DNA of 64,000 nt from Halorubrum sp. DM2 (GTDB taxonomy: Archaea > Halobacteriota > Halobacteria > Halobacteriales > Haloferacaceae), in assembly GCF_901686465.1 (NCBI RefSeq), contig NZ_LR594487.1:2167650-2231649 (forward strand). Direction: 5' to 3'. Positions 5,821-55,085 of the stretch are shown one piece after another; the stretch's first letter is position 1; each line of letters begins with the position of its first letter. Under the pieces are notes generated by a model. It saw only the letters and a list, made by a program, of their open reading frames with translations. It did not search any database and was not told the origin of the DNA. Position numbers and translations under genes: made by a program.

Positions 5821-5919
5821 CGTCACCCGTGTTAATTACACCCACACATATGAGTCTTGTGTCGGTGTGTCAGTGATTCGGTGTGATGTTTAAATACCGG
5901 TAGCGGTAGCGACGGTTTC

Positions 5920-6220
5920 TTATAAAGAAACGTGCGGTGGCGCGCGCCTCCGAGGCCGCATCGCGGCCGAGGAGCGCCGCGCGAGGGAGTCGACCGGTCG
6001 GAGCGAAGCGGAGACCGGTCGACGAGGCTGGGGAGGCGTGAGGTGCGGTGCGGGGCTGTGCGGGGTGGGACTCGAAGGGGCAGTCGCGAGGCGGGCGCAG
6101 GCGACGTAAGCACCGCAACGAGGGAGCAACGCGACCGAGTGAGGAGCGCAGCGAGCGTGCGCCCGCCTCGCGACTGGGGCTTCGGTGTTGTTCACCGCAA
6201 AATCATCGACTACTTATAAA
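5920..6220 (-). repeat. Structured dispersed repeat, copy 1 (possible ncRNA)
   Basis: One of three ~300-nt intergenic copies, each bounded at both ends by TTTATAA (here TTATAAA at 5920-5926 and 6214-6220 on the plus strand). It contains a perfect 19-bp stem (6081-6099 with 6158-6176). A perfect 11-bp stem follows (5989-5999 with 6013-6023), and between them lies a conserved core at 6024-6080. A further GC-rich hairpin lies near 5945-5985. Read in the orientation of the other two copies, this one is on the minus strand, pointing toward the 55-aa gene. No protein call is supported. Flanking similarity to copy 3 runs on to about 5900. Confidence 0.8.
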
Positions 6221-6265
6221 CATCTACCAATAACGCCGCTCGCTCTACTCGCGGTGTTCGTCGAA

Positions 6266-6373
6266 AACGCCAGGAGAGGGATTTGAACCTCAGTCGTTCC
6301 GCTCGCTTTTCGAGGCGCTCGCTTCGCTCACGCCTCGCACCGCTCGCTTCACTCTCTGGTTCAAATCCCTCAG
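6266..6373. repeat. Duplicated tRNA-Ser 3' end with inverted partner
   Basis: A 24-nt stretch at 6266-6289 (aacgccaggagaggg and following) is identical to 6440-6463, which is the 3' end and T-arm of tRNA-Ser(GGA). The T-arm part is also present inverted near 6360-6373 (ggttcaaatccctc). The arms enclose a GC-rich segment with many cgctcgctt motifs. No integrase or mobile gene is nearby. It could be a relic attachment site or a spread tRNA-derived repeat. Confidence 0.6.
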
Positions 6374-6441
6374 TCTGTGTTCGTCGACGCCGGACTCGCT
6401 CGTCGCTACCGCTCCTCGCTCGCAGTCGGCGTCGACAGGAA

Positions 6442-6523
6442 CGCCAGGAGAGGGATTTGAACCCCCGATCCCGGATGGGAACACGCTTTCCAGGCGTGCG
6501 CCTTACCACTCGGCCATCCTGGC
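6442..6523 (-). tRNA. tRNA-Ser(GGA)
   Basis: An 82-nt class II tRNA. The acceptor stem is GCCAGGA/TCCTGGC with discriminator G. The D-arm is GCC...GGC. The anticodon arm CACGC-CTGGAAA-GCGTG gives anticodon GGA. A long variable arm is present, and the T-loop is GGTTCAAATCC. No CCA is encoded and no intron is seen. The 3' end is duplicated 174 bp downstream. Confidence 0.95.
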
Positions 6524-6550
6524 TCACGCGGTGATACTCCGGTGCGACTG

Positions 6551-6811
6551 TTAAGTCCTTCTTTTCGCTCGGAGTCGCGCCTCGGCGAGGTAGGAGAGAC
6601 CGGCCGACGCCGCGGCGACGCCGAGCGCGACGAGCGCCAGCCCCCAGAGGCCGACCGGCAGCGACCCGGGACCGAGAAGTCGGTACCCCTGCGCGAGCAC
6701 GAGGAAGGCGAAGCCGCCGACGGCCCCCCACAGCGCCGCGGACCGCGCTCGGGCGCGCGGCGTGGCCGGCGCGCCGGGCGTCACCGTCGACTCCTCCCCG
6801 CCGTCGGCCAT
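6551..6811 (-). CDS. Small two-helix membrane protein, unknown function
   Basis: An 86-residue protein with a short charged N terminus. Two hydrophobic segments follow, at about residues 28-47 (ALWGAVGGFAFLVLAQGYRLL) and 53-74 (VGLWGLALVALGVAAASAGL), and it ends in a basic tail (EARLRAKRRT). It has no recognised domain. Its ATG abuts the stop codon of ridA with no gap, so the two are probably co-transcribed. It may be a lineage-specific membrane protein. Confidence 0.6.
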   Translation of the reverse strand: MADGGEESTVTPGAPATPRARARSAALWGAVGGFAFLVLAQGYRLLGPGSLPVGLWGLALVALGVAAASAGLSYLAEARLRAKRRT

Positions 6812-28528: not shown

Positions 28529-28822
28529 TTTATAAATGAGTGATCGACACGACTGCCTCCGAAGCCCCAGTCGCGACGGCTCGCGCGGCTTGTTGCGGTC
28601 CTCGTCGCTCGCTGCGCTCGCTCCTGCGGTCCTTACTGCGCCGTGCTTCGCCCTCGCGACTGCCCCTTCGAGTCCTGCCCGGCACAGCACCGCACAGCAC
28701 CTCACGCCTCCCCAGCCTCGTCGCTCGCTTCGCTCGCGACTCCCTCGCGCGTGCTGGCTCGCGGCCGCCTTCGGCGGCACGCTCGCAGGCACGCGCCGAC
28801 CGCACCGCCGTAGATTTATAAA
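28529..28822 (+). repeat. Structured dispersed repeat, copy 2 (possible ncRNA)
   Basis: A 294-nt copy bounded by TTTATAA at 28529-28535 and 28816-28822. The conserved core is at about 28663-28719. The first hairpin is shorter and more divergent than in the other copies (9 bp, 28568-28576 with 28654-28662). A second short imperfect stem follows the core, then a third near 28755-28798 (gcgcgtgc/gcacgcgc). It lies between npdG and the prenyl synthase gene, in the same direction as both. No protein is supported. Confidence 0.8.
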
Positions 28823-54906: not shown

Positions 54907-54991
54907 GCCGAGGTAGCCTAGCCTGGCCAAGGCGGTAGATTCGAAATCTACTGTCCATTCGGACACCGGAGTTCAAATCTCCGCCTCGGCG
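54907..54991 (+). tRNA. tRNA-Ser(CGA)
   Basis: An 85-nt class II tRNA. The acceptor GCCGAGG/CCTCGGC carries discriminator G. The anticodon arm GTAGA-TTCGAAA-TCTAC gives anticodon CGA. A long variable arm and the T-loop GTTCAAATC are present. It has no intron and no encoded CCA. It is the second serine tRNA in the window. Confidence 0.95.
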
Positions 54992-55085
54992 CTTCTCGCA
55001 GTCTCGTTCGGTGAGCGGCGGCGTCGTCATGTTCCACAATCCGCGGCGTCGCCGCGCCCGGCAGTGAAGCGTGCCCGAGCAGGCG

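Follow-up and report, generated by a model that had tools for sequence, protein, structure and literature searches.

The tRNA-Ser(GGA) gene of Halorubrum sp. DM2 is followed by a short non-coding unit that carries a copy of the gene's own 3' end, and we found that this unit is a member of a real and widespread haloarchaeal class of hairpin arrays anchored on tRNA genes. The class is undescribed in the literature searched: no account of the haloarchaeal arrays was found in open-access literature. The arrays have a common anatomy with sharp borders of the 22-nt copied block, are specific to their own tRNA, are present or absent by whole units, lie predominantly in one orientation, are restricted in our sample to one order, taken here as the Halobacteriales, and show compensatory changes in hairpin type B1. 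Copies of a tRNA's own end stand behind 38-53% of tRNA genes in three haloarchaeal families. We give an even chance to the reading that the Ser(GGA) feature is one unit of a set of haloarchaeal small non-coding integrative repeats that are anchored on tRNA genes.

Anatomy of the Ser(GGA) unit

The window, by which we mean the whole stretch of 64,000 nt that was analysed, covers positions 2167650-2231649 of a one-contig 3.45-Mb genome. A sequence-only reading of it had pointed to an exact 24-nt repeat of the tRNA-Ser(GGA) 3' end 174 bp away, with part of it inverted in between, and coordinates and permutations (z 14.7) confirmed this. The 24-mer AACGCCAGGAGAGGGATTTGAACC, which consists of the last 22 nt of tRNA-Ser(GGA) plus 2 nt, is exact at 6266-6289 and 6440-6463 (174 from start to start), and the inverted 14-mer GGTTCAAATCCCTC at 6358-6371 is 100% complementary to both copies. 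The locus has the following parts:

6442..6523, minus strand: tRNA-Ser(GGA) gene (ARAGORN; RF00005, 62.6 bits)
6442..6463, minus strand: S, first copy, inside the tRNA; nt 52-73, from T-loop minus 2 to the discriminator (borders of the duplicated block over 62 copies)
6369..6441, minus strand: spacer A, 73 nt, hairpin type A1 (GTCGACGCCG ... CGGCGTCGAC)
6358..6368, minus strand: S', antisense to the T-loop and to 2 nt either side of it (the complementary block reaches 6371)
6290..6357, minus strand: spacer B, 68 nt, type B2, with an inner hairpin that enlarges it
6268..6289, minus strand: S, distal copy, 22/22 nt identical to tRNA nt 52-73
6268..6441, minus strand: complete unit A-S'-B-S, 174 bp (in other species such units may be present or absent here)
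6228..6267, minus strand: beginning of another A spacer, type A2 (TTTTCGACGAACA...), with neither S' nor S; here the array ends truncated (by-eye comparison with the A2 spacers of relatives; border approximate)

Both spacers are rich in hairpins. The predicted RNA fold of the tRNA together with the unit is far stabler than those of shuffles (z -5.6), and in it S' pairs with the distal S while the 5' acceptor strand of the tRNA pairs with the distal copy.

A long structured repeat at about 5935-6195 of the window adjoins the tRNA-Ser array. With its core CACGCCTCCCCAGCCTCG matched at up to 3 mismatches, more matches were found near 28703 and 47775, and in the same genome relatives lie downstream of the genes for SRP RNA (L268) and, reversed, for RNase P RNA (L269), as well as near the tRNA genes L154, L163, L185, L186, L187 and L267; this repeat often stands behind stable RNA genes.

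Own-end copies in three genomes

Three near-complete genomes from different haloarchaeal families, this one (G000), G045 and G037, were scored by comparing the 24-nt 3' end of each tRNA with its own and all other downstream regions, other tRNAs being masked. A copy of the tRNA's own 3' end lies within 400 nt downstream of 18/47, 24/45 and 23/57 tRNA genes, respectively, at a threshold of at least 14 of 24 that was fixed after the first genome and that non-self pairs reach in 4.0% of cases (first genome, tRNAs unmasked). The permutation tests are independent of this threshold and gave z scores of 14.7, 17.8 and 16.6, with 0/20,000 permutations as high. The tRNA set of this genome was extended from 45 RF00005 hits and the intron-containing tRNA-Trp (L007) to 47 ARAGORN predictions, including one likely false tRNA-Val (L162) that the first count left out and later ones kept; two tandem tRNA-Asp genes have a common array whose copies were counted for both, and tRNAs lacking a TTC[AG] T-loop motif or lying at a locus edge were skipped. 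Upstream of the same genes there were no own-end copies (0/47, 0/45 and 0/57; z -0.6 in this genome). The acceptor side alone, an 11-nt stretch that differs between tRNAs, gave z scores of 12.4, 15.3 and 12.1. The antisense of the own end is likewise enriched downstream (z 4.0, 6.8 and 7.9) and near chance upstream (z 2.0, -0.1 and 1.4), the slightly raised upstream value of this genome being equalled or exceeded by 627/20,000 permutations. From S to S the distance has a median of 131 bp and a range of 69-317 within the 500 nt searched; a reach of 400-500 nt would miss larger elements whose copy lies farther away.

Other copies in the genome were looked for, as the sequence-only reading had proposed. 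The core 14-mer GGTTCAAATCCCTC has 8 occurrences in the 3.45 Mb: 3 at the Ser(GGA) locus, 2 that are the T-arms of tRNA-Leu(CAA) and tRNA-Thr(CGT), 1 about 90 nt behind tRNA-Gly(TCC), and 2 at the intron-containing tRNA-Trp, so that 0/8 are far from a tRNA gene. The distant tRNA-end fragments that this reading had named as evidence against an attachment site were thus not seen for the core 14-mer in this genome. The same reading had considered a dispersed tRNA-derived repeat; a repeat family it is, but its members sit behind tRNA genes and carry the end of their own tRNA. The 3' ends of the SRP and RNase P RNAs of this genome have no downstream copy (best score 10 of 24), and on these two genes a general feature of stable RNAs was rejected. 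The only other tRNA in the window, tRNA-Ser(CGA) at 54907-54992, has no own-end copy downstream (score 8 of 24).

The genomes differ in which tRNAs are occupied. For the three genome pairs, 11, 7 and 13 occupied tRNA types are in common against 8.6, 7.2 and 12.1 expected (p 0.107, 0.675 and 0.393), five types have copies in every one of the three genomes and seven lack them throughout; an overlap that does not exceed chance is what would be expected of a mobile or fast-turning element.

Borders and specificity of the copied block

Offsets were counted from the first T of the T-loop, and the nearest copies were chosen only on positions +3 to +16. Over 62 copies, identity to the tRNA is 0.35 at -3, 0.77 at -2 and 0.87 at -1, remains at 0.82-1.00 through +19 (0.94 at +19, the discriminator), and is 0.58 at +20; the average copied block is thus nt 52-73. 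An earlier border profile had been selected on the whole block and was repeated with this inner window, in which S' was found in 33/62. S' spans -2 to +8, an 11-nt antisense of the T-loop with 2 nt on each side, where complementarity is least conserved at -1 (0.55), and it is weaker (0.5-0.6) from +9 to +11.

The copies belong to the tRNA that they follow. Among sense T-loops downstream of tRNAs in the three genomes (n=73), 58 are joined to the tRNA's own acceptor end, 4 to a foreign one and 11 to neither, and three of the four foreign ends are in a tRNA-Met array behind an Asn-Met pair and are those of the neighbouring tRNA. That foreign acceptor ends are so rare speaks against a promiscuous recombinase with crossovers confined to the T-loop. 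By eye, S' follows the T-loop variant of its own tRNA, and the acceptor antisense beside S' is also self-specific (z 5.0). At tRNA-Ser the p-distances are 0.034-0.051 for S, 0.075-0.093 for A and 0.062-0.146 for S', so S is mildly better conserved than A and S' no different from it. The S copies behind tRNA-Trp (L007) and tRNA-Thr CGT (L158) have the same one-base T-loop insertion, TTCACAAT rather than TTCAAAT.

Variation and empty sites

The tRNA-Ser(GGA) locus varies among relatives, and the absence of variation that the sequence-only reading had named as evidence against an attachment site was not observed. In the 62 loci that passed a filter on tRNA motif and length (53 of 80 named loci, the window and 8 others), copy number ranges from 0 to 3: 23 have none, 32 one, 6 two and 1 three. 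In first units, each of the three A types pairs with both B types.

Related species differ by whole units directly behind the tRNA. A 126-bp unit of Halorubrum sp. Atlit-26R (L046) is absent from L017; it stands before an A spacer common to both, and the two loci align base-exactly from the first base after S. Alignment from the first base was also seen for L043 and L049 against L017 and for L076 against L035, three of these four comparisons using the one empty locus L017. In Halorubrum halophilum (L058) a 138-bp A-S'-B-S stands between the tRNA and a flank that follows the tRNA directly in H. persicum (L059), and L060 has two units (298 bp) where H. yunnanense (L061) lacks both; in both pairs the first 15-20 nt of the flank match weakly, and the placement of the L058 gap is uncertain by 3 T's. 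As these comparisons are between species, a gain in one and a loss in the other look the same. The sequence-only reading's proposal of an attachment site stands in part, in that the duplicated end behaves like an att site or a target-site duplication, whole units differing between species; a plain att scar, however, predicts neither oriented hairpins nor an antisense T-loop.

Some arrays, such as that at Gly-CCC, have clear tandem copies (by eye). When distal and proximal copies were compared by hand in 20 arrays at up to 5 mismatches, the distal copy was worse in 9, better in 2 and equal in 9, which is weak evidence of polarity. At up to 8 mismatches the distal copy was worse in 16, better in 7 and equal in 10 (p 0.009; 9 to 1 at the Ser loci), a result that is inflated because chance matches are included.

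Hairpins at the RNA and DNA level

The B spacers are of types that are met again at other tRNAs and in other families, and their orientation is that of the tRNA in 81/86 downstream matches (B1 26/26, B2 48/52, B3 7/8), counted with short regular expressions that admit some chance matches. For a further 13 matches (11 B2 and 2 B3) ARAGORN gave no tRNA within 500 nt, and another B2 lay upstream. In at least one case, at a tRNA-Phe gene (G037:C1:418733-418801; L119/L233), the B1 spacer is inverted, unlike the 26/26 that are oriented.

In 21 units hand-picked as type B1 or alike, 7/7 pairs of the inner stem vary on both sides. The whole-structure covariation score is 0.317 against 0.114 shuffled (0/500), of which only the inner stem is informative, since many of the 21 units were found by the S'/S pairing pattern; mismatches recur beside the inner stem. 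On the tRNA-sense strand, S' and S form 555 Watson-Crick pairs, and their mismatches are 31 of G-U type, 7 of C-A type and 34 others. Sense-strand folds are stabler than their reverse complements in 44/57 and 47/57 segments. Inside B the balance of mismatches is reversed (G-T 12, A-C 33), and A shows no clear bias (26 and 20); as units share ancestry, none of these counts are independent. As a guide to RNA or DNA, the mismatch types of S'/S and of B contradict each other.

No match of the unit to a covariance model was found in Rfam 15, only the tRNA reaching a gathering score in window 5900-6600 and six other loci, and a known RNA family was ruled out for these sequences. A guide-RNA role for the antisense T-loop seems unlikely, no consistent box C/D or H/ACA boxes being seen by eye. 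In G037 the arrays L239 and L254 are followed by a common element that starts with ACCACCTTTTTC and ends with GAAAAAGCTGGACC (by eye), possibly a common terminator or a further module.

Distribution

The pattern GGATTYGAACC-N35..65-GGTTCRAATCC was found in 29/294 sampled genomes of the phylum, all 29 of them in the same order (29/53 sampled, and 0/241 others), and a reversed control pattern had 0 matches among the same 294 genomes. A relaxed pattern matched at least 103/146 genomes of the order, its control none, and a complete genome of the same phylum from outside the order had own copies at 0/51 tRNAs (z 1.5). A hairpin lay downstream of an ARAGORN tRNA at 28/30 loci, taken one per genome from 30 of the 31 genomes matched in a separate hairpin search; the two remaining are L129, where a tRNA-Gly has its 3' but not its 5' part, and L126, in an assembly with Ns. 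At 78 named tRNA-Ser(GGA) loci an own copy is present downstream in 43 (score at least 14, some 15-16) and upstream in none. These come from Halorubrum, Haloferax (L079, L082, L086, L088, L090, L095, L097 and L102, scores 15-24), Halobaculum, Halorarius, Halomarina, Halolamina, Natrinema, Natronorubrum, Halovivax, Salinigranum, Halorientalis, Ca. Halobonum and metagenome-assembled genomes.

The B1 core pattern, the only B type searched there, was found in 0 stretches of IMG/VR, and a viral origin was rejected on this result. The T-loop palindrome pattern occurs in 5 IMG/VR contigs, where the hairpins are longer, perfect palindromes. In L192-L196 a perfect T-arm palindrome stands beside the apparent start of a tyrosine-recombinase gene (by eye); these palindromes are possibly ends of recombinase-only mobile cassettes, like those of Bifidobacterium.

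Comparison with known systems

The integron cassette array is a familiar arrangement of direct core repeats, an oriented imperfect attC hairpin and unit-wise presence or absence. In layout the haloarchaeal arrays resemble it in their direct core repeats, in an imperfect oriented hairpin with S' and S as its arms, internal loops and a variable tip, and in the presence or absence of whole units; they differ in that their units, at this size, contain no ordinary gene.

The closest parallel known is the E. coli tyrT repeat array (rtT RNA, RttR), in which, as in the haloarchaeal arrays, tandem units that carry the tRNA's own 3' end lie downstream of the gene, there 178 bp apart. At the E. coli tyrT locus (L300) AATCCTTCCCCCACCACCA is repeated, and the best antisense T-loop match has 3/11 mismatches. 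At this one locus the block differs in being shorter, starting inside the T-loop and including CCA, and the unit has no antisense T-loop. Rfam rtT had no match by cmscan in window 5900-6600 (E<=10) or in six other loci (E<=1). A 175-bp rtT RNA VNTR is listed as varying in copy number between Salmonella Paratyphi A strains (PMC2658671).

Like the att duplications of tyrosine-recombinase elements in tRNA genes, the haloarchaeal arrays have a direct duplication that reaches the tRNA 3' end and an insertion between tRNA and flank; in contrast to them, the insert of about 130 bp is too small for an integrase gene, and the units are tandem at 38-53% of tRNA genes with an inverted core copy inside. 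Of the usual marks of an att element, we thus observed the direct duplication and the empty site in relatives, and no integrase gene in the element. Target duplication at a tRNA end also recalls casposons, and repeat-spacer-repeat with the tRNA in the leader's place recalls CRISPR adaptation, but the haloarchaeal block is 22 bp inside the tRNA, the spacers are related hairpins, and Cas1 is unmatched in the three genomes. Casposases insert at tRNA 3' ends with duplications of 14-15 bp, the duplicated block being 14 bp and overlapping the last 4 bp of the tRNA (PMC6977970). The MITEs and PATEs of Haloquadratum are alike in being short non-coding repeats with palindromic parts; in the excerpted text of PMC3119063 what defines them is terminal inverted repeats, or palindromes close to the ends, together with related transposons, and that text makes no mention of tRNA anchoring, which is the difference from our units.

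Origin of the units

If the repeats are integrative, a unit A-S'-B would enter directly behind the tRNA, duplicating nt 52-73 such that S comes to lie on both sides, and repeated entry together with unit-wise loss through the direct S repeats would lead to tRNA-S-A-S'-B-S-A-S'-B-S. An enzyme recognising the tRNA 3' end might act by staggered cuts, with a 22-bp target duplication, or by strand exchange at the T-loop border; the oriented hairpin S'-B-S may be its recognition or recombination structure, and the units would then be mobile beyond local amplification. Insertion with duplication of nt 52-73 is suggested by the sharp borders, the duplication of the own tRNA, the empty sites, the common spacers and the turnover of occupied tRNAs. 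The units, however, have no recombinase gene, a search for Cas1 found none in trans, and recombination between S repeats alone can also change arrays. Moreover, a plain target duplication does not explain why S' follows the T-loop variant of its own tRNA, which needs a further cause, either a pairing constraint or fold-back copying; this self-match is where the insertion reading is weakest, and it is what most favours the two rivals that place the cause in an RNA trailer or in local DNA events. In a more specific form, which we hold tentatively and consider somewhat doubtful, an undescribed haloarchaeal recombination system would place non-coding cassettes that bear hairpins at the 3' ends of tRNA genes, the oriented S'-B-S being its folded substrate. 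Because nt 52-73 would always be duplicated, the tRNA would stay intact and the array would be specific to its own tRNA.

Rather unlikely, in our estimation, is that the arrays function within the tRNA transcript as structured trailers with S'-B-S and S-A-S' as alternative RNA hairpins, in which the copied end would be kept for pairing with S' or with the 5' acceptor strand and would tune termination, 3' processing or tRNA yield. Such trailers are consistent with the predominant orientation along transcription, the stable fold of tRNA and unit (z -5.6) with its pairing of S' to distal S and of 5' acceptor strand to distal copy, the excess of G-U mismatches between S' and S (31 vs 7), the stabler sense folds (44/57 and 47/57), the compensatory changes, and the end of the distal S at the discriminator, which is where RNase Z would cut the tRNA. 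They fit poorly with a mismatch balance that is reversed in B and even in A; the units are related and the counts not independent, transcription-linked mutation could equally produce a G-U excess, the tRNAs that are occupied change from genus to genus, and roughly half of all tRNA genes lack a copy. We also think it unlikely that local DNA events without a dedicated enzyme, that is, fold-back or template-switch copying and unequal recombination between short repeats in polyploid cells, account for the arrays. Such copying reaches only the neighbouring tRNA and would thus give self-specific copies, as both S and S' are (antisense downstream z 4.0, 6.8 and 7.9; acceptor antisense z 5.0), the alternation S-A-S'-B-S is the inverted-triplication pattern that results from two template switches, some arrays (Gly-CCC, by eye) have clear tandem copies, and unit-wise loss between S repeats requires no enzyme. 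It would be at odds, however, with the recurrence of the same A and B types at different tRNAs and families in mostly one orientation, with average borders that are sharp at nt 52 and 73 over 62 copies, and with copies that lie downstream and none upstream, none behind SRP or RNase P RNA, and none in one genome from outside the order.

The scar of one lost integrative element, a provirus or plasmid, at tRNA-Ser(GGA) is very improbable. Tyrosine-recombinase elements commonly attach at tRNA genes (PMC8371274), and the tRNA 3' end is indeed directly duplicated; yet the same organisation is found at 38-53% of tRNA genes in three families, with tandem arrays, conserved hairpins and a small unit that is itself present or absent. 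We rejected a single scar as the main reading because it is the small unit, not a larger element, that differs between the species compared, and the lost element proposed by the sequence-only reading gives way to units that are themselves the insertions, at 18/47, 24/45 and 23/57 tRNAs. Most improbable of all would be insertion by a Cas1-type integrase, whether a casposase or the CRISPR adaptation machinery, that duplicates the tRNA end as its repeat. The insertion of casposases at tRNA 3' ends, the similar layout of leader-repeat-spacer-repeat and the tendency of distal copies to be more diverged (9 worse, 2 better and 9 equal in 20 arrays) would agree with this, but Pfam PF01867 has no match in the three array-bearing genomes, and terminal inverted repeats were not seen by eye at the unit ends. 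Since Cas1 (PF01867, E<=0.001) was detected in 0/3 array genomes, with the control positive in 9/14 genomes, this reading is weakened further; only a past event or a helper acting in trans would survive this result.

Whether the arrays reflect a new recombination system or a new kind of structured tRNA trailer, the interest would be general; the former, if true, would amount to cassette arrays anchored on tRNA genes that belong neither to integrons nor to CRISPR nor to known integrative elements. The arrays can mislead a search for integration sites or for tRNA-derived RNAs. If they record insertions at tRNA ends, what protects, reshapes or exploits tRNA 3' ends becomes directly testable, for which the genetics of Haloferax are good.

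Acceptor ends also occur in a second type of unit, seen by eye at the tRNA-Gly, -Arg and -Ala loci L154, L155, L151, L165, L187 and L162. It consists of the antisense of the acceptor 3' strand, a hairpin and a sense acceptor end, without the T-loop, and looks like a terminator made of the tRNA's own acceptor end.
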